Positions 9,522-48,574 of a stretch of 64,000 bases of DNA are shown here, one piece after another. Made by a program: the position numbers and the translations under genes. The notes below the pieces were generated by a model. That model saw only the letters and a list, made by a program, of their open reading frames with translations. It was not told the DNA's origin and ran no database searches. This stretch comes from Rugosimonospora africana (lineage in GTDB: Bacteria; Actinomycetota; Actinomycetes; Mycobacteriales; Micromonosporaceae): positions 62,001 to 126,000 of the forward strand of contig NZ_BONZ01000067.1 of NCBI RefSeq assembly GCF_016862975.1. Reading direction: 5' to 3'. How positions within the stretch are numbered: the stretch's first letter is position 1; every line of letters starts with the position of its first letter.

Positions 9522-9607
9522 GAGGGTTGGCAACAGTCGGTCCGCGGGGCCGCGCGGTTTTTGTCGTACCCGGGGAGTACGTCTGTCACCTGGCACAGGT
9601 GTGCAGG

Positions 9608-9692
9608 CTGGCGGGCCTGTCACTGGCGGGCTGTCACTGGCGGGCTGTCACTGGCGGGCTGTCTCTGGCGGGCTGTCTCTGGCGGCCCGTCT
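9608..9692. repeat. 14-nt tandem repeat in the spacer before the Asp-box gene
   Basis: Six copies of CTGGCGGGCTGTCA (the first has one extra base; the last two are diverged). It fills much of the 296-nt spacer 9474-9769. Apart from the promoter at 9477-9521 I see nothing else in this spacer. Confidence 0.85.
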
Positions 9693-9769
9693 TCGGCGGC
9701 GTGTCGCTGGGCGCACCGGTTCGATAAGACAACAGTGAAGACGACTTCTACCGAGGGAAGGCTGAGGGC

Positions 9770-10885: not shown

Positions 10886-11196
10886 TCCGCGTCGTCCTCC
10901 CGGCTCATCTCAAGACGCTGGCGCACGTCACCGGCGAAGTGCGGCTCACCGTCGACGGTCCGGTCGAGGGGGCCGGACCGGTGACCCAACGGCTGCTGCT
11001 GGACGCCCTGGAAAGCCGGTACCCGATGCTGCTCGGCACGATTCGCGACCGCCGCAGCGGGAAGCGCCGGCCGTTCGTGCGCTTCTATGCGTGCGAGGAG
11101 GACCTGTCCAACGAGTCGCCGGACGCCCCGCTGCCGGAACCGGTCGTCTCCGGCGTGGAGCCGCTGATCATCCTCGGCGCGATGGCCGGGGGTTAG
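10882..11196 (+). CDS. MoaD/ThiS-like beta-grasp protein ending in Gly-Gly
   Basis: A 104-residue protein with a ubiquitin-like pattern: strand [10 protein letters not shown], then VRLTVDGP, the helix [15 protein letters not shown] and a final strand leading to the C-terminus GAMAGG. MoaD and ThiS carry sulfur as a thiocarboxylate on a terminal Gly-Gly, which is present here at the very end of the chain. It is about 20 residues longer than usual ([17 protein letters not shown] insert). It starts at GTG 10882, overlapping the propeller gene. No MoaE, ThiG or E1-like adenylating enzyme is nearby, so it is probably not part of molybdopterin or thiazole synthesis. Confidence 0.75.
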
Positions 11197-11865
11197 GTCC
11201 TTCTCTGCCGATCTCGTCGCGGGGCATCCGGCGGGCGCCACGGGTCGCCTGGACGCCCCGGGAACGGTGGCGCTCGCGCTCGGGCGTCCCATTACTCTCC
11301 GTCAGATCCTGCCGTGAGTGGCGGCCGCCGCCACGCCACCGATCACCCGGCCCCCTCGGCGTCGGTCCGCTCGGAACCCTCCTCGTCACCGGGGAGGTCA
11401 ATGCCGCTCGTACGGCATCCGGAGAGCGACTTCATCCGGCTACTGCTCATTCTGTCGCATCACCTGATTTCCGGAAAAGTACGCGCATCTGCCGCGCATT
11501 ACCGGCGCACGTGCATATGCACAACCACAGATCAGCGCCACAGTGGTTACTGTCGGCTGCAGTGACGAGTCGATTACCGTAGGACCGCAATCTCCATCGA
11601 GACCATCGTTCGCGTTTGGCCCTGTTCTGTCGATCTTGTCGAGCCGAGGCGGAGGCCAGGCGTCGATCCGTCGTCCGGCCGCCAGCGGTGCCGAGGAACG
11701 AGGCGCCGCGGTCAAGCGGCCGGGGAACTTCGCAGGCAGGGTTCGCAGGGTGTCTGGATACCGGTGTTGTATCCAGACACCCGAGAACGCAGCCGGTCGG
11801 CGGCTAGGCCCGCCGCAGGCCGGCAGATGATCGGCAGGACAGGGCCTGGCGGAGGGGTGAAGAGC
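11197..11865. other. Long spacer with palindromes, no convincing gene
   Basis: About 670 nt between the MoaD-like and XRE genes. It contains a perfect 12-bp palindrome GTGCATATGCAC (11511-11522) and a 14-bp inverted repeat (11748-11782, listed separately). Its base composition is less GC-biased around 11400-11600 than the genes. Short open frames on both strands show no recognisable protein pattern. Confidence 0.5.
11748..11782. repeat. Perfect 14-bp inverted repeat, 7-nt loop
   Basis: GGGTGTCTGGATAC (11748-11761) and GTATCCAGACACCC (11769-11782) are exact reverse complements around CGGTGTT. No T-run follows, so a classical terminator is unlikely, and it lies about 85 nt before the XRE gene start. 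It may be an operator, an RNA hairpin in the leader or the remnant of an element end. Confidence 0.7.
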
Positions 11866-12684
11866 GTGCCAGTCACTGGACAGCGTGTTGTGCGACGGAC
11901 GCTCGGGCGCAGGCTGACCCGACTGCGCCTGGCCGTGAACAAGACCCGACGCGAGGTCGCCCGGGAGCTCGGCATCTCCGAACCGACTCTGCACCGCATC
12001 GAGACCGGGAAGGTACCCGTCACCGTCGCCACCGTCCGCGCCCTGTGCTGGAGCTATCAAACCGACCAGAGCGCCACCGACGCCCTCGCGGAACTCGCCT
12101 CCGGCACGAACCAACAGCAGTGGTGGGACTCCAGTCCAAACGTTCCCGAGTGGTTCAAGCTCTTCGTGGGCCTTGAGGCCAGCGCCAACCGGATCTACTG
12201 CTACCACGGCGAGGTCGTCCCGGGCGAGTTGCAGACCGAGCAGTACGCGCGCGCGGTCTTCGACGCGGATCGGTCCGGCGACGAGCAGGGAGCCCAACGG
12301 CAGGTGTCACTGCGCCTGCAGCGCCAGAACACGCTGCTCACCCGCACCCCGCCGGCACAGGTGACCACGATCCTCGACGAGGGCGCCCTCACCCGTCCGG
12401 TCGGCGATCGGGACGTCCTCGCCGGGCAGATCGACCATCTCCGGCAGGTCGGCCAGCGGCGTCACCTGGACATCAGGGTCCTGCCCTGGTCGGTGGGCGC
12501 CCACGCGGCCATGGCCGGAGCCTTCCGCATCCTCGAATTCGACGATCCGCAGGACCCTGACATCGTCTACCTCGAATCTCACGTCGGCGCGCTCTACCTC
12601 GAAGAACCGTCCGAGGTCGAGGAGTACCGGCGCATCTTCAAGCTGATCAACAGCGAGAGCGTGTCGATCGACGAGTACCGGTAG
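11866..12684 (+). CDS. XRE family regulator with DUF5753 domain
   Basis: A 272-residue protein with an N-terminal helix-turn-helix (RRLTRLRLAVNKTRREVARE, LGISEPTLHRIETGKVPV) and the C-terminal DUF5753 ligand-like domain (FVGLEASANRIYCYHGEVVP, LLTRTPPAQVTTILDEGALT, VLPWSVGAHAAMAGAFRILE). Such regulators are abundant in actinomycetes and are often paired with a small DUF397 protein downstream; none is present here. The start is uncertain: GTG 11866 lies 10 nt after GGAGG (11851-11855), while GTG 11857 and ATG 11827 are in frame too. Confidence 0.88.
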   Translation: MPVTGQRVVRRTLGRRLTRLRLAVNKTRREVARELGISEPTLHRIETGKVPVTVATVRALCWSYQTDQSATDALAELASGTNQQQWWDSSPNVPEWFKLFVGLEASANRIYCYHGEVVPGELQTEQYARAVFDADRSGDEQGAQRQVSLRLQRQNTLLTRTPPAQVTTILDEGALTRPVGDRDVLAGQIDHLRQVGQRRHLDIRVLPWSVGAHAAMAGAFRILEFDDPQDPDIVYLESHVGALYLEEPSEVEEYRRIFKLINSESVSIDEYR

Positions 12685-12792
12685 CTCGGCCGTCCACGCG
12701 CACAGCCGTCCACGCGCACGGCCGCCCCACGCGCTCGACCGCCCACGTGCGACACGCGATCGTCCGTCCGGGTGGGCGTCCGGTCCGCGTCG

Positions 12793-13299
12793 CTACGGAA
12801 CGACGGTGACCGGCCACAGTCCGGCGCGTACCAGGCGGGTGGCGATGGAGCCGACGAGGCGGTGTCCGGCATGCTCGGACGCGCCGACCACCACCATGTC
12901 GGCGTGCACGTCGATCGCGGCCTGACGCAGTTCGTCGAAGGCGTCGCCACGACGAACCATGAACGTGACCGGTATGCCCATCTCCTCGATCCGGTCCTGG
13001 AAGTGACCGCGCACTTCGGCGATGGCCTCGTCGAACGTGTCTTCCTGCACGGCGGCGGACGTCCCGGCACCCAGCCCGGTCCAGACTCCCGGCACGGCGA
13101 CGTACACGATCACCAGGCGGGCGTTCTGTCGCTGGGCCAGGCCGCCCGCGTACGCTCCGGCCCGCAGCCCGGTACGGGAGCCGTCGACCCCGGTCAGGAT
13201 CACCCGCGGGCCGACGGTACCCCGCTCGAACGGCCCGGGTACCCAGGCGGGACCGTAGTTCTCGATCAGCCGGACCGAACCGGTGCCCTCGCTACTCAC
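12793..13299 (-). CDS. Universal stress protein (UspA fold)
   Basis: A single-domain USP of 168 residues. The core begins RVILTGVDGSRTGLRAGAYA and ends with the nucleotide-binding stretch VVVGASEHAGHRLVGSIATR followed by VTVVP. The expected G-2x-G-9x-G(S/T) pattern is partly kept (GASEHAG...GSIA), so ATP binding is plausible. GTG at 13299 is preceded by GATACT and a 6-nt gap, which would suit a leaderless message; further upstream sequence is not family-like. It is convergent with the XRE gene. Confidence 0.85.
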   Translation of the reverse strand: MSSEGTGSVRLIENYGPAWVPGPFERGTVGPRVILTGVDGSRTGLRAGAYAGGLAQRQNARLVIVYVAVPGVWTGLGAGTSAAVQEDTFDEAIAEVRGHFQDRIEEMGIPVTFMVRRGDAFDELRQAAIDVHADMVVVGASEHAGHRLVGSIATRLVRAGLWPVTVVP

Positions 13300-34384: not shown

Positions 34385-35587
34385 TCAGCGCACGACGAGG
34401 GTGACGCCGTCCCGGGGCGGTACCAGTTCGCCGATCACCGGATAGCCGGGCACCTCACCGGCGACCAGCAGGCCGCCCGACGTCTGCGCGTCGGCGAGCA
34501 GCAGCAGTTCGTCCTCGCCGGCCGTGCCGGCGCTCAGCCGGTGCCGCACCCAGTCCAGGTTGCGCCGGGTGCCACCGCTGACGTATCCGGCGGCCAGGGC
34601 GGCGCGGGCCCCGTCGAGGTACGGCACCGCCGCCGCGTCGATGACCGCCGTCACGCCGCTCGCCCGCGCCAGCTTGTGCAGGTGACCCAGTAGCCCGAAG
34701 CCGGTCACGTCGGTGGCGCACGACGCCCCGCCGGCCAGCGCGGCCCGGGCCGCGTCCCGGTTGAGTGTCGTCATCGCGTCGACCGCCTGCGGGAACACCT
34801 CAGCGGTCGCCTTGTGCCGGCTGTTGAGCACACCGATGCCGAGCGGCTTGGTGAGCGTCAGCGGCAGGCCCGGGCGCCCGGCGTCGTTGCGCAGGAGCCG
34901 CCGCGGGTCGGCGACACCGGTGACCGCCATGCCGTACTTGGGCTCCGGGTCGTCGACGCTGTGCCCACCGGCGACGTGGCACCCCGCCTCGCGAGCCACG
35001 TCGAGGCCGCCGCGCAGGACCTGCGCGGCGAGGTCGAGCGGCAGCACCTCCCTCGGCCACGCCAGGAGGTTGACGGCGACCAGCGGCGTGCCGCCCATCG
35101 CGTACACGTCGGACAGCGCGTTGGCTGCGGCGATACGACCCCAGTCGTAGGCGTCGTCGACCACGGGCGTGAAGAAGTCGGCGGTCGCCACGATCGCGGT
35201 GCCGTCCGTGGTGCGCACCACGGCGGCGTCGTCGCCGTCGTCCAGCCCGACGATCAGGTCGCCGATCGGGCCGGACGGGCCACCGGACAGGCTGCTGGAC
35301 GGGTCGCTGGACGGGTCGCTGGACGGGCGACTGGTCGGGGCACCGATGGGGTCGCCGGCCGGGCCACGGGTCGGGCCACGGGTCGGGCCACCGGTCGGGA
35401 TCGCCGTGCGGCCCGAGACACCCCGGACGGCGCGGCCCGAGACGTCCCGGGCCGGATCGGCCGAGGCGCCGACCAGGCCGGAAACCATCGCCTCCAGCTC
35501 GCCCGGTGGGATCTTGCAGGCGCAGCCGCCGCCGTGCGCGTGCTGGGTCAGCCGGTACCGCGTGATCGTCTGCGTTAGGTCTTTCAC
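34385..35587 (-). CDS. selD: Selenide, water dikinase (selenophosphate synthase)
   Basis: Makes selenophosphate from selenide and ATP, the selenium donor for selenocysteine. The catalytic Cys/Lys loop is HAHGGGCACKIPPGELEAMV near residue 20. Later motifs are GLDDGDDAAVV, ATADFFTPVVDD, ANALSDVYAMGGTPLVA, AGGHSVDDPEPKYGMAVTG and TDVTGFGLLGHL. Start GTG 35587 has GGGAG 8 nt upstream; GTG 35602 is also possible. About 70 residues of Gly/Pro/Arg/Ser repeat (GGPTRGPTRGPAGDP, SSDPSSDPSSSLSGGPSG) are inserted between the catalytic loop and the ATP-binding core. This is far longer than the usual linker. It is divergent from the tRNA-Sec gene. Confidence 0.93.
   Translation of the reverse strand: MKDLTQTITRYRLTQHAHGGGCACKIPPGELEAMVSGLVGASADPARDVSGRAVRGVSGRTAIPTGGPTRGPTRGPAGDPIGAPTSRPSSDPSSDPSSSLSGGPSGPIGDLIVGLDDGDDAAVVRTTDGTAIVATADFFTPVVDDAYDWGRIAAANALSDVYAMGGTPLVAVNLLAWPREVLPLDLAAQVLRGGLDVAREAGCHVAGGHSVDDPEPKYGMAVTGVADPRRLLRNDAGRPGLPLTLTKPLGIGVLNSRHKATAEVFPQAVDAMTTLNRDAARAALAGGASCATDVTGFGLLGHLHKLARASGVTAVIDAAAVPYLDGARAALAAGYVSGGTRRNLDWVRHRLSAGTAGEDELLLLADAQTSGGLLVAGEVPGYPVIGELVPPRDGVTLVVR
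35270..35400. repeat. Repeat-built insertion inside selD
   Basis: Irregular units of 12-15 nt (GGACGGGTCGCT and CGGGCCACGGGT types) that keep the reading frame. They encode the SSDP/GPTR-rich linker that separates the SelD catalytic loop from its core. Confidence 0.75.
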
Positions 35588-35647
35588 CTGTATGTCTCCC
35601 ACCCGCACGCCTCTCACCAGCACGCCTCCCCTCTGCACGCCTCCCAC

Positions 35648-35696
35648 CTGTCGGATATTAGCCGGAATGAGATATACGTGCGGGTAGGGTGCTTTC
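35648..35696. promoter_or_regulatory. Divergent promoter region of selD and selC-selA-selB
   Basis: A short AT-rich island holds TAATAT on the minus strand (35660-35655) and TATACG on the plus strand (35673-35678). The second lies at a suitable distance from the tRNA 5' end (35697). -35 boxes are not clear. Confidence 0.35.
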
Positions 35697-35792
35697 GGAG
35701 GCGTTCGGGCGGCTGGTGCGCTCCACGGTCTTCAAAACCGATGTGGCCCGGGATCCGGGCCAGGCGGGTTCGATTCCCGTCCGCCTCCGCCA
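35697..35792 (+). tRNA. selC: tRNA-Sec (anticodon TCA)
   Basis: The gene folds as selenocysteine tRNA. The acceptor GGAGGCG (35697-35703) pairs with CGCCTCC (35782-35788), followed by discriminator G and encoded CCA (35790-35792). The anticodon stem CGGT/ACCG encloses CTTCAAA with TCA at 35732-35734. A long variable arm follows (GGCCCGG/CCGGGCC), and the T arm contains GGGTTCGATTCCC. The length of 96 nt is typical of tRNA-Sec and too long for ordinary tRNAs. It ends 55 nt before selA and is probably transcribed with it. Confidence 0.95.
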
Positions 35793-35847
35793 GACAACTA
35801 CCGCCACACAGCTACCGCCACACAGCTCGCCGTTCCGGGAGGTCAGC

Positions 35848-37137
35848 GTGGACCCGCGCCGGCGCGTACCGCGTACCGATGCCGTCCTCGCCGACGCGCG
35901 CCTGGTCGCGGCCGCCGCCACGTTGGGCGCCGGGCAGGTCAAGGCCGCGGTCACCGCGGCGCAGGACCGGGCCCGCCGGGGCGAGATCACGCCCGAGGCC
36001 GTCGCGGACAGCGCGGTGGCGGCGTTGCCGGGACTGTGCGCGAGCCTGCGTCCGGTGATCAACGCGACCGGCGTCGTGCTGCACACCAACCTCGGCCGCG
36101 CGCCGCTGTCCGCGGCGGCGGTCGACGCGCTGGTCGCGGCGGCCGGGCACACCGACGTCGAACTGGACCTCGCGACCGGCCGGCGGGCGCGCCGGGGGCG
36201 GGGCACCATCCAGGCGCTGCGCGCGGCGGTACCCGAGGCTGCCGCCGTTCACGTCGTCAACAACGGCGCCGCCGCGCTCGTACTCGCCGCGACCGCGCTC
36301 GCCGCCGGCCGGGAGATCGTCGTCAGCCGAGGCGAGCTGGTCGAGATCGGCGACGGGTTCCGGCTGCCGGACCTGCTGGAGTCGACCGGCGCCCGGTTGC
36401 GCGAGGTCGGTACGACCAACCGGAGCGCGCTGGCCGATTACGCGGCGGCGGTCGGCCCGGACACGGGCTTCGTCCTCAAGGTGCACCCGTCCAATTTCGT
36501 CATCAGCGGCTTCACCGCCAGCGTTCCGGTCGCCGACCTGGCCACGCTGGGCGTGCCGGTGGTCGTGGACATCGGCTCCGGACTGCTGGCCGCCGACCCG
36601 CTGCTGCCCGGCGAGCCGGACGCCGCGTCGACCCTGCGAGCCGGGGCGGCACTGGTGACGGCGAGCGGCGACAAGCTGCTCGGCGGACCGCAGGCCGGCC
36701 TCCTGCTCGGCGACGCCGAGCTGGTGGAGCGCCTGCGCCGGCATCCGCTCGCCCGCGCGTTGCGGGTCGACAAGCTCACGCTCGCCGCCCTCGAAGCCAC
36801 GCTCCGCGGACCCCGCTCCCCCACCTGGGCCGCCCTGCGCGCCGATCCGGCGACCCTGCGGGTACGCGTGAAGGAGCTGTGCCGGGTGCTGGGTGACCTC
36901 GACGCGGAAATCGTCGCGTCGGCGGCTGTGGTGGGTGGCGGCGGCGCACCCGGGCTGGAACTCGACTCCTGGGCGCTGTCGCTGCCGGAGCGCCTGGCCG
37001 CCCCGTTGCGCTCGGGCGACCCGCCCGTCGTCGGCCGGATCGAGCGGGGCCGGTTGCTACTCGACCCGCGGTGCGTACCGGCGGAGTTGGACGCCGTACT
37101 GGCCTCGGCGGTACGGCGGGCAGCCACGTGCACGTGA
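35848..37137 (+). CDS. selA: L-seryl-tRNA(Sec) selenium transferase
   Basis: PLP enzyme of 429 residues that converts Ser-tRNA(Sec) to Sec-tRNA(Sec) with selenophosphate. Family motifs are RPVINATGVVLHTNLGRAPL, VHVVNNGAAALVLAATALAA, EIVVSRGELVEIGDGFRLPD, REVGTTNRSALADY, KVHPSNFVISGFT, VVVDIGSGLL and the PLP-lysine SGDKLLGGPQAGLLLGD. GTG 35848 has GGGAGG 5-6 nt upstream. It directly follows selC and overlaps selB by 10 nt. Confidence 0.95.
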   Translation: MDPRRRVPRTDAVLADARLVAAAATLGAGQVKAAVTAAQDRARRGEITPEAVADSAVAALPGLCASLRPVINATGVVLHTNLGRAPLSAAAVDALVAAAGHTDVELDLATGRRARRGRGTIQALRAAVPEAAAVHVVNNGAAALVLAATALAAGREIVVSRGELVEIGDGFRLPDLLESTGARLREVGTTNRSALADYAAAVGPDTGFVLKVHPSNFVISGFTASVPVADLATLGVPVVVDIGSGLLAADPLLPGEPDAASTLRAGAALVTASGDKLLGGPQAGLLLGDAELVERLRRHPLARALRVDKLTLAALEATLRGPRSPTWAALRADPATLRVRVKELCRVLGDLDAEIVASAAVVGGGGAPGLELDSWALSLPERLAAPLRSGDPPVVGRIERGRLLLDPRCVPAELDAVLASAVRRAATCT

Positions 37138-39086
37138 TCGCGACGGCGGGTCACGTCGACCACGGCAAGTCCACACTGATCCGGGCCCTGACCGGGATGG
37201 AGCCCGACCGGTGGGCCGAGGAAAGGCGACGCGGCATGACCATCGACCTCGGCTTCGCCTGGACCACGCTCACGTCGGGCGAACCGGTGGCGTTCGTGGA
37301 CGTGCCGGGTCACGAGCGGTTCGTGCCCAACATGCTGGCCGGCGTCGGCCCGGTACCCGCGGCGCTGTTCGTGGTGGCGGCCGACGAGGGCTGGATGCCC
37401 CAGTCGGCGGAGCACCTCGCCGCGCTCGACGCCCTCGGGGTGGCGCACGGGCTGCTCGTGCTCACCCGGTGCGACCTGTCCGATCCGGCGCGGGCGGCAG
37501 CCCAGGCGCGGGCCGAGTTCGCCGGAACGTCGCTGAGCGGTGTCGAGACCGTGGCGGTCAGCGCCGCGACCGGCGCCGGGCTGGATGACCTGCGGGCGGC
37601 GCTCGACCGGCTGGCCACGTGGCTGCCGGTACCCGACCGGTCGGCTCCGGTTCGGCTGTGGGTCGACCGGTCGTTCGCCATCCGGGGTAGCGGCACCGTG
37701 GTCACCGGTACCCTCGGCGCCGGGCGGCTGCGCACGGGCGACGAGTTGGAACTTGTCGGCGCTTCGGTGCCAGACGCGCCGGGCCGGGGCGGTCGGACGA
37801 CTGGTCTGGGTCGTGGCGCGGCGCCAGACGGACCGAGCCGGACCGGTCGCAAGGTTCGGGTACGCGGCCTGCAGGCGCTCGGCACCCCGGCGTCGGAGGT
37901 GAACGCCGTCGCCCGGGTCGCGGTAAACCTGCGCGGCGTCGACCGGGACGGAGTACGCCGCGGACACGCCCTCGTCACGCCGGGCCGGTTCCACCTCACC
38001 GCTCTCGTGGACGTGCGGCTGTCCGGCGATCCGGTGTCCTCGTTGCCGGCGGAGGTGACCCTTCACCTCGGCTCGGCGGCCGTCACCGCCCGGGTACGGC
38101 CGCTGGGCGCCGACACCGCCCGGCTGCGGCTGGCCGCGGCGCTCCCGTTGCGGGTCGGCGACCGGGCGCTGCTGCGCGATCCCGGCCGCCACCACCCCGG
38201 CACCCACGATCCCGGCATCCACGATCCCGGCCGTCATCGCGTGGCCGGTGGCGCGGTGGTCCTCGACGTGGACCCGCCACCCCTGCGGCGCCGTGGCGCG
38301 GCAGCCGCCCGCGCGGTCACACTGTCCACACTGGACGGTACCGCGTCCGAACGGGACGCCCTGCGCCGGCGGGGCCTGGCGCGCCGGGAAGACCTCGAGC
38401 GGATGGGCATCGCCGTGTCCGCCACGCCGGTGGCCGGCGACTGGCTGGCCGACCCGGAGCACTGGGCCGCGCTGCGCGACCGCCTCGCCGAGCAGGTCGC
38501 CCGCCACGCAAGGGAGCATCCGCTCGATCCCGGCATGCCGGTCGAGGCGCTGCGGCACGCCCTGGGACTGCCCGACCGCGCCCTGGTGGACGCGCTCGTG
38601 GCGCCGCCGCTGTTCGCCCGTGACGGTCGGATCGTCGTCGCCGGGCAGGACGGGGTGCTGCCCGAGCCCGTCGCCCGGGCGGTCGCCCGGCTTCGTGCCG
38701 ACCTGCGCAGTGAGCCGTTCCGCGCTCCGGACGCGGGCCGGCTCGCCGCGCTCGGGCTCGGCCCGCGGGAGTTGGCCGCGGCGGTACGCGCCGACGCTCT
38801 GCTGCGCATCGCGGACGGCGTCGTGCTGCTGCCCGACGCGCCGGAGGAGGCGATGACGGTACTGTCCCGGCTGCCTCAACCGTTCGCCCTCACCGATGCC
38901 CGGCAGGCGCTGGCCACCACCCGGCGGGTCGCCGTACCACTGCTGGAGATGCTCGACCGCCGTGGCGCGACCCACCGCCTGCCCGACGGCCGCCGCCGGA
39001 TCGGTCGGTCCTCCACTGTGGACGGTGTCGCGGGGGCGCCTACCCTTCCGTCTTCCGGGTCAGCAGCTCGCGCACGACGGCGGTGA
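37128..39086 (+). CDS. selB: Selenocysteine-specific elongation factor
   Basis: GTPase of 652 residues that brings Sec-tRNA to UGA codons marked by a SECIS hairpin. G1 is VIATAGHVDHGKSTLIRALT, G2 is RRRGMTIDLGFAW, G3 is FVDVPGHERFVPNMLAG and the G4 position reads VLTRCDLSD. EF-Tu-like domains 2-3 follow, then the winged-helix C-terminus that binds SECIS (LDRRGATHRLPDGRRRIGRS). A 15-nt-unit insertion (HHPGTHDPGIHDPGRH) sits in the domain 3 segment LLRDPGRH...RVAGG. A second Gly/Arg-rich insertion lies near residue 215. Start GTG 37128 is chosen from the family N-terminus. The 3' end overlaps the convergent kinase gene by 47 nt. Confidence 0.93.
   Translation: MHVIATAGHVDHGKSTLIRALTGMEPDRWAEERRRGMTIDLGFAWTTLTSGEPVAFVDVPGHERFVPNMLAGVGPVPAALFVVAADEGWMPQSAEHLAALDALGVAHGLLVLTRCDLSDPARAAAQARAEFAGTSLSGVETVAVSAATGAGLDDLRAALDRLATWLPVPDRSAPVRLWVDRSFAIRGSGTVVTGTLGAGRLRTGDELELVGASVPDAPGRGGRTTGLGRGAAPDGPSRTGRKVRVRGLQALGTPASEVNAVARVAVNLRGVDRDGVRRGHALVTPGRFHLTALVDVRLSGDPVSSLPAEVTLHLGSAAVTARVRPLGADTARLRLAAALPLRVGDRALLRDPGRHHPGTHDPGIHDPGRHRVAGGAVVLDVDPPPLRRRGAAAARAVTLSTLDGTASERDALRRRGLARREDLERMGIAVSATPVAGDWLADPEHWAALRDRLAEQVARHAREHPLDPGMPVEALRHALGLPDRALVDALVAPPLFARDGRIVVAGQDGVLPEPVARAVARLRADLRSEPFRAPDAGRLAALGLGPRELAAAVRADALLRIADGVVLLPDAPEEAMTVLSRLPQPFALTDARQALATTRRVAVPLLEMLDRRGATHRLPDGRRRIGRSSTVDGVAGAPTLPSSGSAARARRR
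38177..38236. repeat. 15-nt tandem repeat inside selB
   Basis: Imperfect copies of GATCCCGGCATCCAC-type units encode DPGRHHPGTHDPGIHDPGRH. They duplicate the normal RDPGRH segment of SelB and keep the frame. Confidence 0.85.
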
Positions 39087-39564
39087 TCTCAACCTCGGTA
39101 GACGTGTCCACACGCACCACCTCCCCGATGCCCAACGGCTCGGCACGAGCCGCCCAGTCGTCCCACGAGGTGGCCAGGTGGCGTGCGTCCTCGTACATCG
39201 AATGCCTGACCCGAGCGGCGTACCGGCCTCGGGCGACCTCGGCCGGTACCTCGCACCACACCTCCACCAGCGCGGGCTCGCCGCACCGGCGCCAAGCGGC
39301 CGTCGTGAACGCCAGATCGCGTGGCCGGAACCACCACGACTCCAGCAGGACTGTGCCCGCGATGCCGGCGGTCAAGCTCCACGCCGCCTCCATGGCGATG
39401 GCGCCGAGGCCATCCGGCCTAGCGGTGGGCACCGCCGACAACAGCGCTTCCTTCAGGGCGTCCTTCGATATCACCGGTACGTTCAGAGCGGGACCCAGGC
39501 GAGTCGCGAGGGTGGTCTTTCCCGATCCGGGCAGCCCGTTTACGAGGATGACGCGTTCCGCCAT
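39040..39564 (-). CDS. P-loop kinase-like AAA protein
   Basis: A 174-residue nucleotide-binding protein with Walker A ILVNGLPGSGKTTLATRLGP and a following VPVISKDALKEALLSAV, where Lys-Asp is typical of small-molecule kinases and zeta-toxin-like folds. WWFRPRDLAF and the lid region YAARVRHSMYEDAR follow. Small kinases of this type phosphorylate antibiotics, sugars or nucleosides. No partner antitoxin is visible. Its 3' end overlaps selB. Confidence 0.75.
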   Translation of the reverse strand: MAERVILVNGLPGSGKTTLATRLGPALNVPVISKDALKEALLSAVPTARPDGLGAIAMEAAWSLTAGIAGTVLLESWWFRPRDLAFTTAAWRRCGEPALVEVWCEVPAEVARGRYAARVRHSMYEDARHLATSWDDWAARAEPLGIGEVVRVDTSTEVEITAVVRELLTRKTEG

Positions 39565-39614
39565 CCGACCATGATCGCATTACCGACCGGCCTTCGCCTC
39601 GGCCGGATGGCGAT

Positions 39615-40181
39615 TCAGATCCTCGAGAGGTCGATGGTGACCGGGAACGGCGCGGTCGCCTTCACCAACCCGGTGAAGACCTCGGCATCGCGGTATTTCA
39701 CACTCGCCATGTCGAGGACGTAGGTGTGGACGATCGGCATGCCGGTGAGCGCCTGCTCGATCCGCCAGTAAAACTGGATGCCCGCCTTGGCGTATTGATC
39801 AAGCTTGACAACGCGGTCGGTGGTCTCGGATCCGGGGGAAACAACCTCGGCAACCATGAGAACGTGCTCCGGCCGGGTGGGTGTGATGTCCAGCGTGTCC
39901 GCCCGATAGACGATCACATCAGGACGCCGGTTGAGTAGCGGTACATCCTGAAGCCTGAGGTCAAAGTCGACGTCGGCATTCCACCCGTCACCGGCTGCCG
40001 CTTCCAGGGCAACCGCGAGCGTCTTCGCGATCCGGTTGTGTCGCTTGGACGGGCTTGGGCTCACCACAACCATCCCATCCACGATCTCGACCCCGGCAGA
40101 CTGCTCCGCGGACCACGAGTCATACTGCTCGGCGGTCACCAGTTCATGCATCCATGCGGGTGCAACAGCTTCCGCGGTCAT
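39615..40181 (-). CDS. Uma2 family (PD-(D/E)XK-like) protein
   Basis: A 188-residue member of the Uma2 restriction-endonuclease-like family. Conserved points are VTAEQYDSWSAEQSAGVEIV, VDGMVVVSPSPSKRHNRIAK, RRPDVIVYRADT (catalytic Asp), VLMVAEVVSPGSETTDRVVK (Glu...Lys region) and YAKAGIQFYWRIE. The role of these proteins is unknown; the family is much expanded in actinomycetes and cyanobacteria. ATG 40181 is chosen; GTG 40187 is possible. Confidence 0.88.
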   Translation of the reverse strand: MTAEAVAPAWMHELVTAEQYDSWSAEQSAGVEIVDGMVVVSPSPSKRHNRIAKTLAVALEAAAGDGWNADVDFDLRLQDVPLLNRRPDVIVYRADTLDITPTRPEHVLMVAEVVSPGSETTDRVVKLDQYAKAGIQFYWRIEQALTGMPIVHTYVLDMASVKYRDAEVFTGLVKATAPFPVTIDLSRI

Positions 40182-40307
40182 CGCCACATCCCCAGCAAAA
40201 TAGATCGTGGGGCCCCCTGTGCCGCCACGACGCACATCGTACCGGGCCTGCCCCGCTCAGGCGTACGAACCGGACGCACCACACAATCCGCCCGGCACGT
40301 GAGTTGG

Positions 40308-41240
40308 TCAGTTGTCACTGTGGCCACGACTGCCGGAGGTCCGTGGCGGCCGGAGCCGCTTCTCGAACCAGTGGTGGGCGTAATGCTCGGTGTTGTACCG
40401 CTCGATCTCGCGGTAGCCGGCCGAGCGATACATGGCGATCGCCTCGGTCAGGTTGCGGTTCGTGTCCAGCCGTATGGCGGTCCAGCCTCGTTCGGCGGCA
40501 TACTCTTCCAGCTCGCCGAGCATCCGCCGGCCGACCCCGAGCCCGCGTACCGTGTCGGCGACCCAGACCCGCTTGATCTCGGCCGGCGTCCCGGGGTGGA
40601 GCTTGACCGCGCCGCAACCGACGGGTTCGGAGTTGAGAGTGGCGAGCAAGAACACACCCGCCGGCGGGATGAGCTGTTCATCGCGGACCGGTGTGCTCAG
40701 CGCGGGATCGAACCCGTCGTCGAACCGCCGCGCGACGTCGCGCGCATAGGCCCGCAGGCACGCACGCGCCCGCGGATCGTTCGGCGAGCACGGCTCGATC
40801 ACCACCATCGACGCGACGAGCAGCCGCTCGACCTCGGCCATCGCCGAAGTGAGCCGCTGCCGGCGCTGCGCGGTGAGCGGTTCGAGGATCGACCAGGCGA
40901 GTTCGTCGGAGCGCTTGTCCAGCTCAGTCCACTCCGCCCGGCCGGACTCGGTCAGCGCGGCCACCCTCACCCTCCCGTCGCCGCCGAGCTGGTCGTCCGG
41001 CCCGACGGTGACGAGCCCGTCGTTCTCGAGGTTGCGCAGCAACCGGCTCAGGTACCCCGAGTCCAGCCCGAGCCGAGCGCGCACCGCGGCGACCTCGGCA
41101 CCGTCGGGGCCGATTTCCCACAGCAGGCGTGCCTGCGCGAGGGGGCGACCGCGGGCCATGTACTCGTCGTCGAGCGCACCCACGCGTTGGGTGACCGTCC
41201 GGTTGAACCGCCGTACCGAGGCGACAAGGTCCGAATGCAT
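40308..41240 (-). CDS. MarR-GNAT fusion: regulator with acetyltransferase domain
   Basis: A 310-residue protein in two parts. Residues 1-140 form a MarR winged helix (LAQARLLWEIGPDGAEVAAV, LDSGYLSRLLRNLENDGLVT). Residues 150-300 form a GNAT domain (EIKRVWVADTVRGLGVGRRM, LGELEEYAAERGWTAIRLDT, AIAMYRSAGYREIERYN). Acetyl-CoA loop and C-terminal motifs are intact. Such fusions are known in actinobacteria and may couple acetylation to gene control. An inverted repeat lies directly before the start, so self-regulation is likely. Confidence 0.9.
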   Translation of the reverse strand: MHSDLVASVRRFNRTVTQRVGALDDEYMARGRPLAQARLLWEIGPDGAEVAAVRARLGLDSGYLSRLLRNLENDGLVTVGPDDQLGGDGRVRVAALTESGRAEWTELDKRSDELAWSILEPLTAQRRQRLTSAMAEVERLLVASMVVIEPCSPNDPRARACLRAYARDVARRFDDGFDPALSTPVRDEQLIPPAGVFLLATLNSEPVGCGAVKLHPGTPAEIKRVWVADTVRGLGVGRRMLGELEEYAAERGWTAIRLDTNRNLTEAIAMYRSAGYREIERYNTEHYAHHWFEKRLRPPRTSGSRGHSDN

Positions 41241-41242
41241 AA

Positions 41243-41258
41243 CCTGACTTTAGTCAGG
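41243..41258 (-). promoter_or_regulatory. MarR-type operator over a leaderless -10 box
   Basis: CCTGACT-TT-AGTCAGG (41243-41258) is a perfect 7-bp dyad only 2 nt upstream of the ATG at 41240. On the minus strand it contains TAAAGT, which ends 6 nt before the ATG, so a bound repressor would cover the promoter. Confidence 0.65.
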
Positions 41259-41376
41259 CATCATGCCGTCTCGTCAAGCGCCCCCGTCAAGCGCCCCTCG
41301 TGACGCTCTCGCGGCCGGGAGGACCGACACGAAGGTGGTTCGTGGCAAGTCACGAGGGTGTGGCCGGTCCGCCGGG

Positions 41377-42459
41377 TCAACGTGCCCCGGTCGATTCCTC
41401 GACGCGTTGCCGCTGCGGTACCACCGTGTATTTCGGGTCCTTCGCCGACGCGACCCCGCCCTCGAAGACGCCGAAGCGGGTCAGCGCCGCCGCGGCCACC
41501 AGAGCGGCGCCCGACAACGCCGAGACCAGCCGGCTGCGCCGGCCCAGCACCGCTCCCGCCGCGCCGGCCACCGTCAGGCCACGCGCCGCCCGCAGCAGGC
41601 GCCCGGCGCGCCCCTGCCGGTACGGCTCGCTGACAATCCCCATCGCGTTCTCCACGCGATGCGACGCCACCAACTCCATCGCCGCCCCGGCCACCGCGAG
41701 CCGGCTGGCCGGACCGGTCTCGGCCAGCGGTGCCGCGAGCAGCGCGACACCCGAGGCACTGGCCAGCGCGCTGCCCGCGAAGACGAAGGGCAGTTGCGGG
41801 TACGCCTCGTGCCAGGACGGTACCGCGGTGTCGGCGATCAGTACGGCGGTGTACGTGGCGACCGCGGGCGCCACCGCCGCGGCCAGGTACCCGGCGGTGG
41901 TACCGGCCACCGGGAGCGCGCGGCGAGCCAGCCCGAGTACGCCGCGCCGGGGAAGCGCCGGCGCCACCTCGGCGACCGCGGCGATCCCGGACGCCGGGCC
42001 GAACAGGGCCAGGATCCAGGTGCCCATCGACATCGGCGAGGTCGGCTTGGCTATCCGGAGCATGTGGTGGAACCGGTTCGGGCGCCCGAGGTCGTGGATC
42101 AGGAAGTAGGTGCTGGCGCCCATCGCGGCCAGGGACGCCAGCCGGGTCGCGCGGCGCATCGCCGGCCGGCCGGTCAGGTCGGCTCCGGCGGCGAGCATCG
42201 ACGAGCCGGCCGCGAGGCCACCAGTGAAGAAGTACGCGGGGATGTCGCGCTTCCACACCGGCGCCTTGAGGATCGGCCGGCCGTAGTAGGAGCGGAACTC
42301 CCGGCCCGGCTCGTCCGCCGGCGGCCCGTCGCCCCGGCCGCGCCGCGCCTGGTACTCCCGGAAGCGGACGCCCACCGGCAACCGCCCGCCCGACTCCTGG
42401 CCGGCGTGACCGCCTGGCTCCCGGCCGGCGTGACCGCCGTCCGTCTCCCCCGCGCTCAC
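41377..42459 (-). CDS. NrfD-type membrane subunit of formate dehydrogenase
   Basis: A 360-residue polytopic protein of the NrfD/PsrC family, which anchors molybdoenzyme complexes and passes electrons to quinone. Typical segments are YYGRPILKAPVWKRDIPAYF, FFTGGLAAGSSMLAAGADL, LIHDLGRPNRFHHMLRIAKP, MSMGTWILALFGPASGIAA and several later helices. Its GTG start overlaps the stop of the iron-sulfur subunit (GTGA). The first 40 residues are hydrophilic with repeats (GGHAGREPGGHAGQESGG). NrfD rather than a cytochrome b subunit is the membrane part here. Confidence 0.85.
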   Translation of the reverse strand: MSAGETDGGHAGREPGGHAGQESGGRLPVGVRFREYQARRGRGDGPPADEPGREFRSYYGRPILKAPVWKRDIPAYFFTGGLAAGSSMLAAGADLTGRPAMRRATRLASLAAMGASTYFLIHDLGRPNRFHHMLRIAKPTSPMSMGTWILALFGPASGIAAVAEVAPALPRRGVLGLARRALPVAGTTAGYLAAAVAPAVATYTAVLIADTAVPSWHEAYPQLPFVFAGSALASASGVALLAAPLAETGPASRLAVAGAAMELVASHRVENAMGIVSEPYRQGRAGRLLRAARGLTVAGAAGAVLGRRSRLVSALSGAALVAAAALTRFGVFEGGVASAKDPKYTVVPQRQRVEESTGAR

Positions 42460-43493
42460 GCCGGCCTCCCGAGGAACGCCACGGCGACCGCGGCCGCCAT
42501 GGCCAGCGCCGCGACACCCGCCCGCTTCCACATGTCCGGCAGGTCTCTGGTGGTCACCACCGGATCCGGCGGCAGCCCGTACACCTCGGGCTCGTCGAGC
42601 AGCAGGAAGAACGCGCCGTCGCCGCCGACGCCGTCCTCCGGGTCGTGGCCGTACAGTCGCGCGGTCGTCTCGCCCGCCGCGTGCAATCGTTCGACCCGCC
42701 GGGCCGCCCGCTCGCGCAGTTCGTCGAGCGGCCCGAACTGGATGGACTGCGTGGGGCATGCCTGCGCGCAGGCCGGGGTCATCCCGTCGCCGATCCGGTC
42801 GTAGCACAGCGTGCACTTCCACGCGCGGCCGTCGGTCTTGCGCTGGTCGATGACACCGTACGGGCATGCCGGGATGCAGTACCCGCAGCCGTTGCAGATG
42901 TCCTCCTGAACCACGACGGTACCGAACTCGGTGCGGAACAGCGCTCCGGTCGGGCACACGTCGAGGCAGGCGGCGTGCGTGCAGTGCTTGCACACGTCGG
43001 ACATCATCAGCCAGCGAAGGTCCGTGCGTTCTTCGCGCCCCGGTTGCCTGCCGGGCAACTCGGACGCGGGCATGCCGAGGAACTCGGGTCCGGCGGCCAT
43101 TCGCGCGGCGGAGTCCGGATGTCGGCCGGGATCCAGGCCGGGCTCGGTGCCTGTGTCGGTGGTGGTGGTCACCGCGTCGGCCGCAGCCGCCGGGGCGATC
43201 GTGGGGCCGGTCGGCGTACCCGCGAACGCCGGGGTCTGGCGGCCGGCCGGTACCGGCTGCTCGACGAACGCGACATGGCGCCACGAGTTGGCGGTCAAGG
43301 CTCCGGTGTTGTCGAACGACATGCCGAGCATGGTCAGCTCGTGGCCGGGTACCCCGTTCCACTCCTTGCACGCCACCTCGCACGCCTTGCAGCCGATGCA
43401 GATGCTCGTGTCGGTGAAGAATCCCATCCGGGCGGGAGGGTCCTGATATCCCGCGTCCGGCGCCGGGTCGAGCGGCCCGTACAGCCTGTTCAT
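42456..43493 (-). CDS. fdhB: Formate dehydrogenase iron-sulfur (4x 4Fe-4S) subunit
   Basis: A 345-residue ferredoxin-like subunit that carries electrons from the catalytic subunit to the membrane. Four cysteine clusters are visible: CIGCKACEVACKEWN, CKHCTHAACLDVCPTGAL, CNGCGYCIPACPYGVI and KCTLCYDR...CAQACPTQSI. A C-terminal hydrophobic helix (AGVAALAMAAAVAVAFLG) anchors it. An unusually long Pro/Thr/Gly-rich stretch of about 80 residues separates the first two clusters. ATG 43493 overlaps the fdhA stop (ATGA). Confidence 0.9.
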   Translation of the reverse strand: MNRLYGPLDPAPDAGYQDPPARMGFFTDTSICIGCKACEVACKEWNGVPGHELTMLGMSFDNTGALTANSWRHVAFVEQPVPAGRQTPAFAGTPTGPTIAPAAAADAVTTTTDTGTEPGLDPGRHPDSAARMAAGPEFLGMPASELPGRQPGREERTDLRWLMMSDVCKHCTHAACLDVCPTGALFRTEFGTVVVQEDICNGCGYCIPACPYGVIDQRKTDGRAWKCTLCYDRIGDGMTPACAQACPTQSIQFGPLDELRERAARRVERLHAAGETTARLYGHDPEDGVGGDGAFFLLLDEPEVYGLPPDPVVTTRDLPDMWKRAGVAALAMAAAVAVAFLGRPA

Positions 43494-46400
43494 GGTTTCT
43501 CCCGCTCGACGGCGTCGGTGGTCAGGATCGGCGTCCGGTGGTCGCCGGTCAGCCCGGCCCGGCGACGGTAGTCGGCCACGTAGTCCAGCAGCGCCTTGCC
43601 GACCGGCCGCCGACCCGGCCTGATGTCGCACGTGCCCACCTTGCTCTCCTGGATCAGCACGTTGGGGTCGAGGGTGATGCCGAACAGGTCGTTGGCCGAG
43701 TCACCGGTGGCCAGGCCCTCGCCTCCCCAGTGGTAGGGCAGCCAGATCTGGTGAATCACGCGGTCCTCGACCCACAGCGGGGTGAGCCGGTCGGTGACGA
43801 GTACCCGTGCCTCGATCGCGGCCCGCGAGGTGACCACGTGCGCGTAGTCCAGGTGGACCAGTCCCCGCTCGGCCGCGAGTTCCGGCGATACCTCGACGAA
43901 CATCTCCGGTTGCAGTTCGGCCAGGTACTTCACGGTGCGGCTCATGCCGCCGGCCGTGTGGTGCTCGGTGAGCCGGCTGACGCTGAACACGTACGGGAAC
44001 ACGTCGCTGTGCGGCTCGGGCGGGCTCGGGTTGGTCGGGTTCGCCGGCCGCCGGTACGTCCTGCGGGTCGGGTTGGCCTGCTGGCCGTGCAACGGGTTGC
44101 GCACCGGCGACTCGGCCGGCTCGTAGTGCGTGGGCATCGGCCCGTCGATCAGCCCTGAGGGCACGTACAGCCAGCCCTTCCCGTCGCCCTGCATAATGAA
44201 CGGATCGATTCCGGAGAGTGCCTCGACACCGGTCGCGTCCGCCGGCGGCCGGTACGACGGGGGCTTCGTCTTCTCGAAGTCGGGCACGTCCGGACCGGTC
44301 CACTCGCCCTTGTCCGGATCCCACCGGGTGTATGCCTTGCGCTCGCTCCACGGCCGGCCCTCCGGGTCGGCGGACGCGCGGTTGTAGAGGATGCGCCGGT
44401 TGGCCGGCCACGACCAGCCCCACTCGGGCGCGACCCAGCTCTGTTCCCGGCCGGGTTTGCGCCGCGCCGCCTGGTTGACGCCGTCGGCGTAGACCCCGCA
44501 GTAGATCCAGCAGCCGCCCACGGTCGAGCCGTCGTCGCGCAACTGGGTGAACGCGGACAGCGGGCGGCGGGTGGCCACCTCGTACCCGTTGATTTCGAAC
44601 AGCACCGCCTCCGCGCTCGGCTCGTCGTCCCGGCCGTGCGTCGGGTAGTCCCAGGCCAGGTCGAGGATGGCGCGGTCGCGCGACAGGGTCGAGCCGGCCA
44701 GCTTCTGCCGGATGACCCGGCCCAGGTGGTAGAAGAACCACAGCTCGGAACGGCAGTCGCCGGGCGGGTCGAGGGCCTTCTCCCGCCACTGCAACAGCCG
44801 CTGGGTCTGGGTGAACGTGCCTTCCTTCTCCACGTGCGACGCGGCCGGCAGGAAGAACACCTCGGTACGGCACTCCTCCGGCACGATCTCGCCGGTCTCG
44901 ATCTCCGGGCTGTTCTTCCAGAACGTGGCGCTCTCGATCATGAAAAGGTCACGCACCACGAGCCAGTCGAGGTTGGCCATGCCCAGCCGCTGCAGCTTGC
45001 CGTGCGCGGAGCCGACCGCCGGGTTCTGCCCGAGCAGGAAGTACCCCTTGACCTTGCCGTCGATCATGTCGAGAACCTGGCGGTACGTGCCGTGGTCGCC
45101 GGTCATCCGCGGCAGGTAGTCGTAGCAGAAGTCGTTGTCCGGCCTCGCCGCGTCGCCCCAGTACGCCTTGAGCAGGCTGGCGCTGTACGCGCGCGCGTTG
45201 TTCCAGAAGCCCTTCTGCTCCGGGTGGCGGATGCTCTCCACCCACTCCGTGAACGTGGTGTGCTTGACCAGCGGCATCGGCAGGTACCCGGGCAGCAGGT
45301 TGAACAGCGTCGGTACGTCGGTGGAGCCCTGGATGCTGGCGTGCCCGCGCAGTGCCAGGATCCCGCCGCCGGGGCGCCCCATGTTGCCCAGCAGCAGCTG
45401 GATGATCGCCCCCGTGCGGATGTACTGCACGCCGACGGTGTGCTGCGTCCAACCCACCGAGTAGATCAGCGCGGAGGTGCGTTCCCGACCGGAGTTCTCC
45501 GTCCAGGCGCGGGCGACCTCCTCGAACTTGTCCGCCGGGATGCCGCAGGTCCGCTCGACCATCTCGGGCGTGTAGCGCGCGTAGTGCCGCTTGAGGATCT
45601 GGTACACGCACCGCGGGTGCCGCAGCGTCTCGTCCCGCTCCGGGCGGCCCTGCACCGGGTGCCCGTGCGACTCGTGCTGCAGTCCGCCGGCGGTCTCCCG
45701 TTCCGTGCTGGTGTCGAACCGGACTCCGTCGTGTTCCTGCCCCGCGTACTGCCAGCTCTCCGGGTTGTACGTGCCGGTCGTCGGGTCGTACCCGGAGAAC
45801 AGCCCGTCGAGGTCCTCGGTGTCGCGGAACTCCTCGCTGACGATGGTGGCCGCGTTGGTGTAGGCGACCACGTACTCCCGGAAGTCGAGTTCGTTCTCCA
45901 AAATGTGGCGGACGATCCCGCCGAGGAACGCGATGTCGGTACCGGCGCGGATCGGCACGTACAGGTCGGCCAGGGCACTGGTACGCGTGAACCGCGGGTC
46001 GACGTGGATGACCTTCGCCCCACGCTCCTTCGCCTCCATGACCCACTGGAAGCCCACCGGGTGGGCCTCGGCCATGTTGGAGCCCTGGATGATGACGCAG
46101 TCAGCGTTGGCGATGTCCTGCTGGAACGTGGTGGCGCCACCGCGACCGAAGCTGGTCCCCAGACCGGGGACGGTGGAGGAGTGTCAAATGCGCGCCTGAT
46201 TCTCGATCTGCAGCGCGCCCAACGCGGTGAACAACTTCTTGATGAGGTAGTTCTCCTCGTTGTCCAGCGTCGCGCCGCCGAGGCTGGAGATGCCGAGGGT
46301 ACGGTGCAGTGGCCGGCCCTCGTCGTCGGAGTCCTCCCAGGTCGCCTCGCGTGCGGCGATGACCCGGTCGGCGATCATGTCAAGCGCGGTGGCGAGGTCG

Positions 46401-46753
46401 AGATCCTCCCACTCGCGGCTGTACGGCCGGCGGTACCGCACCGTCGTCTGCCGCAGCTCGCTGGTCACCAGGTTCTTGCTCGCGGAGCCTTTCGGGCACA
46501 GGCGGCCACGGGAGATCGGGCTGTCCGGATCACCCTCGATCTGGCTGACGCGGCCGTCCTTGACGAAGACGCGCTGGCCGCAGCCGACGGCACAGTACGG
46601 GCAGACGGAGCGGGCCATCGAATCGGCGGTCTCGGTGCGCGCGGTCAGCGCCGCCGAGCGCGGTGACATGGCTGCGGCCCCGCGCCCGAGCGGGTCGGTC
46701 CCGGTCAGCTGCCGGTAGACCGGCCAGCCCTCGATCCAGGTACGCACGCCCAC
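43490..46753 (-). CDS. fdhA: Formate dehydrogenase catalytic subunit, selenocysteine-containing
   Basis: A molybdopterin enzyme of 1087 residues oxidising formate to CO2. The N-terminal 4Fe-4S motif is SVCPYCAVGCGQRV...GRLCPKGS. The active-site sequence is QARI-(UGA)-HSSTVPGLGTSFG, where UGA at 46186-46184 (residue 190) replaces Cys; the frame continues unbroken for 898 codons after it. The downstream SECIS hairpin and the sel genes nearby support Sec insertion rather than termination. The family pattern continues with GSNMAEAHPVGFQWVMEAKE and DPRFTRTSALADLYVPIRAG. GTG 46753 lies 7 nt after TAGCAT on the minus strand, so the message is probably leaderless. Annotation that treats UGA as stop would split the gene. 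Confidence 0.95.
46155..46171 (-). promoter_or_regulatory. SECIS hairpin of fdhA
   Basis: On the coding strand, GTCCCC-GGTCT-GGGGAC forms a 6-bp stem with the loop GGUCU, the same loop that E. coli SelB reads in fdhF. It begins 12 nt after the UGA, a distance fitting the bacterial SECIS rule. Confidence 0.9.
46184..46186 (-). other. Selenocysteine UGA codon
   Basis: In-frame TGA at codon 190 of fdhA, exactly where other formate dehydrogenases have Cys or Sec (before HSSTV). Confidence 0.93.
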
Positions 46754-47059: not shown

Positions 47060-47956
47060 ATGGCCTTCAAGACACCCGACCAGATCGCGACGACGGCGGT
47101 GAACTCCGGCGTCGTCAAAGCGAATCTCAGTCCGGACCGCATGATCGTCGGTGGGATCCTGGGCGGCGCCTACATCGCGTTCGCCGGACTGCTCGCCGTC
47201 GTCGTCACCGCTGGTATGCCGGTGGGCATCTGGGGCAACCTGTCCACGCTGTTCCTCGGCGCGGTCTTCGCGACCGGGCTGATCCTCGTCATCATCGCCG
47301 GCTCCGAGTTGGTCACCGGCAACATGGCGCTACTGCCGCTGGCGCTGACCTCGCGCCGGGCCCCCCTCTGGCGGGTCGTGATGAGCCTCGTGCTGGTCAC
47401 CGCCGGCAACCTGGTCGGCTCGCTGCTGGTCGCCTACCTGCTCGCGGTCAAGACCGGCGTCATCGGGTCGTCGCACTCGGCCGCCGGAACCGCGGGTGCG
47501 CTCACGTTCGCCAAGCTCGCCACCGTCGCCAAGGGCAAGGCGGTGACCGAGACGAGCATCGCGATCTTCCTGCGCGCGATCGGCTGCAACTGGCTGGTCT
47601 GCCTCGCGGTCTGGATGGCCTACGCCGCGGAGGACATCGCGGGGAAGATCCTCGCCATCTTCTTCCCGATCATGGGGTTCGTCGCGATGGGCTTCGACCA
47701 CGTCGTGGCCAACATGTTCTTCATCCCGGCCGCGATGTTCGCCGGCGTTCACGGCATCGGCGCGGCGAACCTGTTCCGCAACCTGGGGCTCGCGTTCGCC
47801 GGCAATCTGGTCGGCGGTGCGTTCTTCGTCGGCTGCTTCTACTGGTACCTGTACCTGCGCGGCCAGGCGCGGCCGATGACGCCGGATGGCATCCAGGCCA
47901 CGCCGACCCCGGATCCGCGCAGCAAGGGCGGCCAGGAGGCGGCCGGCCCGCGCTGA
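47060..47956 (+). CDS. focA: Formate/nitrite transporter family channel (FocA-like)
   Basis: A 298-residue FNT channel with six helices. Typical features are GGILGGAYIAFAGLLAVVV, LVIIAGSELVTGNMALLPLA (TM2 and Omega-loop region), AIGCNWLVCLAVWMAYAAED (NWLVC) and MGFDHVVANMFFIPAAMFAG, which carries the central-pore His. ATG 47060 has AGGG about 6 nt upstream; the ATG at 47048 has none. Lying divergent to the formate dehydrogenase operon, it most likely moves formate for that enzyme, though nitrite cannot be excluded. Confidence 0.9.
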   Translation: MAFKTPDQIATTAVNSGVVKANLSPDRMIVGGILGGAYIAFAGLLAVVVTAGMPVGIWGNLSTLFLGAVFATGLILVIIAGSELVTGNMALLPLALTSRRAPLWRVVMSLVLVTAGNLVGSLLVAYLLAVKTGVIGSSHSAAGTAGALTFAKLATVAKGKAVTETSIAIFLRAIGCNWLVCLAVWMAYAAEDIAGKILAIFFPIMGFVAMGFDHVVANMFFIPAAMFAGVHGIGAANLFRNLGLAFAGNLVGGAFFVGCFYWYLYLRGQARPMTPDGIQATPTPDPRSKGGQEAAGPR

Positions 47957-48160: not shown

Positions 48161-48574
48161 GTGGAGCGCTCGCCAGGTTCGGCCATTGACTCTGTCCTCG
48201 CCAAGGCCCGGGCTGGCGTGCGAAGGCTGACTCCGGAAGAGACGCTGGCGGCGGGCCGTCGGGGTGCGTTGCTCATCGACACGCGTACCGAGACCCAGCG
48301 ACGCGAGCAGGGCGAGATTCCCGGTGCCCTGGTGATCGACCGGACGGTACTGGAGTGGCGCCTGGACCCGCTCAGCGACGCGCGCATCCCGGAGGCGGTC
48401 GGCCACGACCTGGAGATCGTGGTCATCTGCCGGCAGGGCTACAGCTCCAGCCTGGCCGCGGAGAGCCTGCGGTCGCTCGGGCTGTGGCGGGCCACCGACC
48501 TGGTCGGCGGCGTCGAGGCGTGGCTGGAAGCCGGGCTGCCGCTGTCGTCGGGGCCGGCGGACGTCCGCCGCTGA
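48161..48574 (+). CDS. Rhodanese-like domain protein
   Basis: A single-domain rhodanese of 137 residues. The active-site loop is IVVICRQGYSSSLAAESLRS, with the persulfide-forming Cys. The N-terminal LTPEETLAAGRRGALLIDTR and the final DLVGGVEAWLEAGLPL complete the fold. GTG 48161 is chosen by comparison with the domain; the ribosome site is poor. It may move sulfur or selenium; the nearby selenium genes make the second option worth testing, but nothing in the sequence shows it. Confidence 0.87.
   Translation: MERSPGSAIDSVLAKARAGVRRLTPEETLAAGRRGALLIDTRTETQRREQGEIPGALVIDRTVLEWRLDPLSDARIPEAVGHDLEIVVICRQGYSSSLAAESLRSLGLWRATDLVGGVEAWLEAGLPLSSGPADVRR

Follow-up and report, generated by a model that had tools for sequence, protein, structure and literature searches.

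A 64,000 bp stretch of the Rugosimonospora africana genome (contig NZ_BONZ01000067.1, bp 62,001-126,000; hereafter the window, whose own numbering is used below) holds, within 14 kb, all of the genes for making selenocysteine (Sec) and a Sec-using formate dehydrogenase (FDH). The selD gene (bp 34385-35647, minus strand) encodes a selenide, water dikinase in its cysteine (Cys) form (GGGCACK) and is divergent from the tRNA-Sec, selA and selB genes. The tRNA-Sec gene (bp 35697-35792, plus strand; anticodon TCA) was identified with ARAGORN and scores 72.1 bits with Rfam model RF01852, for which the gathering score is 47. It is followed on the same strand by selA (bp 35848-37137; L-seryl-tRNA(Sec) selenium transferase, start read from the sequence) and selB (bp 37128-39086; Sec-specific elongation factor with the SelB winged-helix domain PF09107). 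As selA starts 55 nt past the tRNA-Sec gene and its end overlaps selB by 10 nt, these three genes stand in one line. SelD (TIGR00476, 370.8 bits, best stretch from residue 130), SelA (TIGR00474, 412.6 bits) and SelB (TIGR00475, 259.8 bits) exceed the NCBIfam equivalog cut-offs. All components of the bacterial Sec-decoding trait (selA, selB, selC and selD) are present, with the three proteins above curated cut-offs and a UCA anticodon in the tRNA, and the clustering with an fdh gene proposed in an earlier sequence-only reading of this DNA is borne out. A second RF01852 match over the cut-off (L002, 48.7 bits) was discounted, as ARAGORN identified this locus of the genome as a tRNA-Ser. The selD product carries a repetitive, low-complexity insert rich in proline, serine and glycine (approximately residues 55-130, bp 35270-35480) between the active-site loop and the kinase core, with a weak PT-repeat match at residues 84-117.

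The FDH operon lies on the minus strand and consists of fdhA (bp 43490-46753; alpha subunit, 1087 residues when read through), fdhB (bp 42456-43493; 4Fe-4S subunit, PF13247, 85.8 bits) and fdhC (bp 41377-42459; NrfD-type membrane subunit, PF03916, 59.4 bits). FdhB scores 181.4 bits with TIGR01582, which is under the cut-off of 334.7. The fdhA frame starts with GTG at bp 46753, with a stop codon two codons ahead of it, and ends in TGA at bp 43490. As the sequence-only reading had stated, it is interrupted by UGA: the single internal stop is a TGA at codon 190 (bp 46184-46186), the predicted position of Sec190. Annotation of this codon as a stop splits the gene, and the list of open reading frames does contain the 189- and 861-residue pieces; such an annotation would break a real and widespread enzyme. 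No twin-arginine pair or motif was found in the first residues of FdhA and there is no room upstream for one, so the subunit probably faces the cytoplasm. FDH activity in E. coli requires FdhD, and an FdhD gene is present in the R. africana genome.

A stop codon within a frame could also be an ordinary nonsense mutation in a decaying fdhA pseudogene. Neither a frameshift nor a further stop is seen, as NF041513 (actinobacterial formate dehydrogenase) matches FdhA in one piece over residues 6-1065 with 1960.2 bits (cut-off 1400). Furthermore, TGA occupies the same codon in 80 of the 80 nearest relatives (the best 80 named, ranging from Micromonospora to Mycobacterium, Streptomyces, Nocardioides and Kineococcus), the full Sec machinery is encoded in the window, and the codons and downstream hairpin are constrained as described below. 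We consider decay of fdhA extremely improbable. Two Sec FDH genes each were observed in Micromonospora foliorum (L044 and L049) and M. noduli (L045 and L047), all four with the TGA and a GGTCT loop.

The candidate Sec insertion sequence (SECIS) is a hairpin at bp 46155-46171 (minus strand; GUCCCC-GGUCU-GGGGAC) with a 6-bp stem and a GGUCU loop. It begins 12 nt past the UGA, exactly as had been claimed, and its loop lies 18 nt from the UGA. In a published model of the bacterial SECIS (PMC13188914), the apical loop is 3-9 nt, the stem is 4-16 bp, a G occupies the first two loop positions, the distance from the UGA is 16-37 nt and the minimum free energy is at most -7.5. The window hairpin lies within these limits (5-nt loop, 6-bp stem, GG, 18 nt from the UGA and -11.4 kcal/mol for 39 nt). 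It also resembles the SECIS of E. coli fdhF, with which it shares the GGUCU loop, the 18-nt spacing and a CAC codon after the UGA. The GGTCT loop and the TGA are present together in all 80 nearest relatives. When 50 of the Sec genes were aligned (33 distinct rows), all six stem pairs were formed in each of the 33 rows and one pair varied between C-G, U-A and G-C. The covariation score of the hairpin was reached by none of 500 shuffles, though kinship can inflate this score.

The clearest evidence for a SECIS is the codon choice at positions +6 to +8 after the UGA, where the upper stem and loop are encoded. Among 110 Sec genes these codons are CCC (110/110), GGT (106 of 106 glycine codons) and CTG (110/110), with no synonymous variation at any of the three. 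The 12 Cys paralogues, described below, vary at +7 and +8, and only one of the 12 retains the GGTCT loop. A scan for a TGA with an appropriately spaced GGUCU-like hairpin and an open frame on both sides returned one site in the 64-kb window. Similarly, the 50 aligned genes were used to build a covariance model, and the 11.1-Mb genome was searched with it by scoring the best 150 of 19,426 first-look candidates. Among these, the window fdhA was the one strong match (E-value: 1e-10), and the next match has an E-value of 2.45. No second FDH-type selenoprotein was found in the genome, in that no other match to the SECIS model falls below an E-value of 2 (a search of limited sensitivity) and no stop lies inside the other TIGR01591 matches.

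Several observations weigh against this interpretation. The two-sided change at a single pair is reached by 274 of 500 shuffles. The folding energy of the hairpin is no better than that of shuffled sequences (z-score: -0.16; 79 of 200 as good), and a different fold is favoured when a 61-nt stretch is folded. The covariance-model check suggested alongside the sequence-only reading gave a divided result: the tRNA-Sec scored well over its gathering score, whereas the bacterial SECIS model RF01989 (SECIS_3) aligned over its full length (1-59) with only 20.1 bits against a gathering score of 63 (E-value: 0.035, with 251 bases searched). A simple scan for hairpins that have a 5-nt loop gave no match in 10 of 32 distant Sec genes. 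Finally, although SelA accompanies FDH in 110 of 125 FDH genomes of a phylum sample (E-value limit: 1e-60), it was missing at this limit from the other 15, of which six have stop-free FDHs and nine have the TGA. Seven of these nine genomes are at most 94% complete, and two (G319 and G629) are 97-98% complete.

The genes, the UGA, the hairpin and its conservation are all observed in the DNA, as is the result that only one such element was found genome-wide; the locus very probably represents a working, family-typical Sec system that serves one membrane-linked FDH. Established knowledge of these protein families suggests how it would operate in vivo. SelD would produce selenophosphate, SelA would convert Ser-tRNA-Sec to Sec-tRNA-Sec, and SelB would deliver the latter to UGA190 of fdhA on binding the GGUCU hairpin that follows this codon. 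Together with FdhB (Fe-S subunit) and FdhC (NrfD-type subunit), FdhA would then oxidize formate and pass the electrons to the membrane, probably as a quinone-linked FDH, and the FocA-type channel encoded nearby probably moves formate. Such a system is already known from Amycolatopsis mediterranei (PMC4048454). In Actinomycetospora chiangmaiensis, selenium-dependent removal of formate by FDH1 was reported and its proteins were detected (PMC7176365). The FDH1 cluster of that organism, like the window, encodes a Sec FdhA (1078 residues), FdhB, FdhC, a permease, SelA and SelB; unlike in the window, SelD is listed outside the cluster. The same report lists three Sec FDHs in A. chiangmaiensis and found no formate oxidation that is independent of selenium. 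NF041513 is itself an already curated NCBIfam family, from which the window FdhA does not differ at the family level. The original observation is thus correct and ordinary in kind, and what is most interesting about it was not yet covered by that description.

The codon directly 5' of the UGA is ATT in the window (bp 46187-46189, minus strand). In 110 close Sec genes this codon is ATT (105), GTT (3) or ATA (2), such that its third base is always A or T. In 80 of these genes, isoleucine is otherwise encoded by ATC (2844 codons), ATT (66) or ATA (8), and A or T is the third base of only 5.1% of all codons (4267/83,450), compared to 100% before the UGA. A set of 32 distant Sec genes was also examined; these were hand-picked, and of the 35 loci and E. 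coli considered, two have TGC and one (L267) could not be aligned at the site. The codon in this set is ATA (21), ATT (4), GTT (4) or ATC (3), giving A or T in 29 of 32. At the same position, the 12 Cys paralogues have GTC (9), GTG (2) or ATC (1) and two Cys genes from another family (G287 and G609) have GTG, so that A/U is found in none of 14 Cys genes. E. coli fdhF has GTC; a C thus precedes its UGA, in contrast to the A or U found in 139 of the 142 actinobacterial Sec genes examined. The exchange of T and A with avoidance of C and G, and the loss of this pattern in the Cys genes, point to selection on the base before the UGA, although shared ancestry accounts for some of the pattern. Whether an A/U-ending codon (ATT, ATA or GTT) 5' of the UGA acts as a second cis-signal for Sec insertion in actinobacterial fdhA is, in our judgement, evenly balanced. 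Such a base could perhaps weaken termination or keep the region of the UGA open. No description of an A/U rule before Sec UGA codons was found in the titles and opening abstract lines of the open-access papers that the searches listed, and the candidate signal may be undescribed so far.

The Sec trait is common in the family Micromonosporaceae. In 250 sampled family genomes, SelA was found in 165 (a count that excludes six matches with E-values above 1e-5, in G017, G050, G060, G079, G124 and G135), tRNA-Sec in 163 (counted at an E-value of 1e-11 or better, a limit chosen by eye) and an NF041513-type FDH in 159. All 163 tRNA-Sec genomes are among the 165 with SelA. RF01852 matches over cut-off occur in 203 of the 250 genomes, probably because of cross-matches such as tRNA-Ser. 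SelA exceeds its cut-off in 162/250 family genomes and 226/396 genomes of the phylum sample; Sec use is patchy, as the sequence-only reading's word "scattered" implied, but it is by no means rare. Four family genomes have an FDH without SelA: three contain only stop-free FDHs (among the matches listed) and one is 69% complete. Conversely, ten of the 250 have SelA but no NF041513-type FDH. In one of these (G242), a piece of fdhC lies at a contig end beside the tRNA-Sec, and the FDH was therefore probably lost to an assembly gap. Two scans for another Sec user near the sel genes of the ten genomes gave nothing convincing, and SelD was the Cys form in all nine cases read. Nine family genomes (L188-L196) have SelA and tRNA-Sec with no UGA-containing FDH found, and seven of them stand apart in the SelA+SelB tree. 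These nine may serve another selenoprotein.

The gene order around fdhA was compared among the 80 nearest relatives, of which 43 have full 10-kb flanks and 37 have incomplete flanks. At least one of selA, selB and tRNA-Sec is found no more than 10 kb from fdhA in 32 of the 43 full-flank loci, in many different orders, and in 23 of the 43 selA, selB, selD and tRNA-Sec are all nearby. The order in the window, where the sel block points towards the fdh operon, was not found in any of the 80, including the 37 with incomplete flanks. Between selB and the fdh operon (bp 39040-41240) are a kinase-like gene, a Uma2 gene and a MarR-GNAT gene, none of which was found near fdhA in the 43 full-flank relatives. 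A gene for a FocA-type formate/nitrite channel (bp 47060-47956, plus strand; PF01226 (FNT), 233.3 bits) is divergent from fdhA. The claim that the system is clustered with a FocA channel therefore describes this locus accurately and extends to few relatives: an FNT gene lies within 10 kb of fdhA in only two of the 43 full-flank loci (one with only 32% identity) and in one locus with incomplete flanks. The channel is a rare addition rather than a general part of the module. Two Kineococcus loci also have the channel next to FDH (57 and 60% identity), a hint that channel and FDH may be functionally paired. A gene for a small rhodanese (bp 48161-48574, plus strand; PF00581, 45.3 bits) lies farther along; its link to the cluster is possible but unproven, with homologues near fdh or sel genes in two of the 43 full-flank loci (L060 and L084) and in L196.

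The clustering and its many gene orders would also be expected of a recently transferred formate-oxidation island, and the sequence-only reading had suggested a transferable module. Transfers of the Sec trait between other actinobacteria have been published (PMC5029168), as has a model in which the sel cluster and fdhA move together (PMC1794560). In addition, Cellulomonas is nested within Nocardioides in our FdhA tree, and a Cys FDH crosses families (see below). Transfers elsewhere are likely. The window itself, however, falls within its own family in both gene trees, which were built with FastTree only (141 FdhA rows, reduced to 122 after removal of near-identical ones). Its FdhA belongs to a 46-row Micromonosporaceae clade, where it stands with Micromonospora pattaloongensis and Planosporangium. 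The SelA+SelB tree assigns the window to a strongly supported, 31-row clade of Micromonosporaceae; outside that clade are Phytohabitans (L060) and eight genomes without an NF041513-type FDH. Judged on these two gene trees alone, there is no conflict with the family of the kind that would mark a recent transfer, and the Sec trait is present in most of the sampled family genomes. We therefore regard a recent transfer to R. africana as unlikely. The "transferable" part of the suggestion may hold for other lineages, while within-family inheritance, with rearrangement and some transfers, fits the window best.

R. africana carries a second FDH operon (G000:C43, locus L146, bp 7701-12938) with alpha, beta and gamma genes. 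This twin has TGC at the Sec site and no GGUCU hairpin. Among the matches listed, stop-free FDHs occur in at least 11 family genomes (at least 12 genes), of which eight of 11 keep the Sec machinery and three have lost it. The 12 Cys genes group together as one clade in the FdhA tree, within the Sec lineages of a second FDH paralogue. When distant Sec FDHs from the phylum were added, the 14 Cys and 140 Sec rows required a single change, though this 154-row tree carries a long-branch warning among its distant rows. A separate conversion for G287 and G609, which belong to another family of the order, was considered and dropped, as the larger tree nests both in the same Cys clade. Because this single Cys clade is nested among Sec genes, we infer that Sec was converted to Cys. 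Within the sample the conversion happened once, provided that the root is not inside the Cys clade. The Cys FDH gene would then have spread across families.

The two R. africana operons may form a selenium-controlled pair in which the Sec FDH is used when selenium is available and the Cys FDH when it is scarce, an addition that is compatible with a working Sec system at the window. Both operons are complete in one genome, and the retention of Sec machinery in eight of the 11 Cys-FDH genomes (among the matches listed) is consistent with such a role. The title of a 2010 paper by Matson (cited in PMC5039349) reportedly places paralogous FDH genes of Treponema primitia under selenium control; these Sec and Cys paralogues are among the closest known parallels to the R. 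africana pair and are of another FDH type. A Sec/Cys FDH pair regulated by selenium has also been described in Methanococcus maripaludis (PMC11097638). Against this idea, the neighbours of the R. africana Cys operon are found again in just one (L152) of the 11 other Cys loci, a comparison of this locus with the others (which were not compared among themselves) revealed no shared regulator, and the twin may instead serve another condition. We offer selenium control only as a tentative possibility.

The locus and its surroundings amount to a natural experiment, with Sec and Cys versions of one enzyme in a single genome, one inferred change from Sec to Cys with later spread of the Cys gene, and a codon-context rule before the UGA. 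Together these could sharpen the recognition of selenoprotein genes and could clarify the competition between recoding and termination in GC-rich bacteria.

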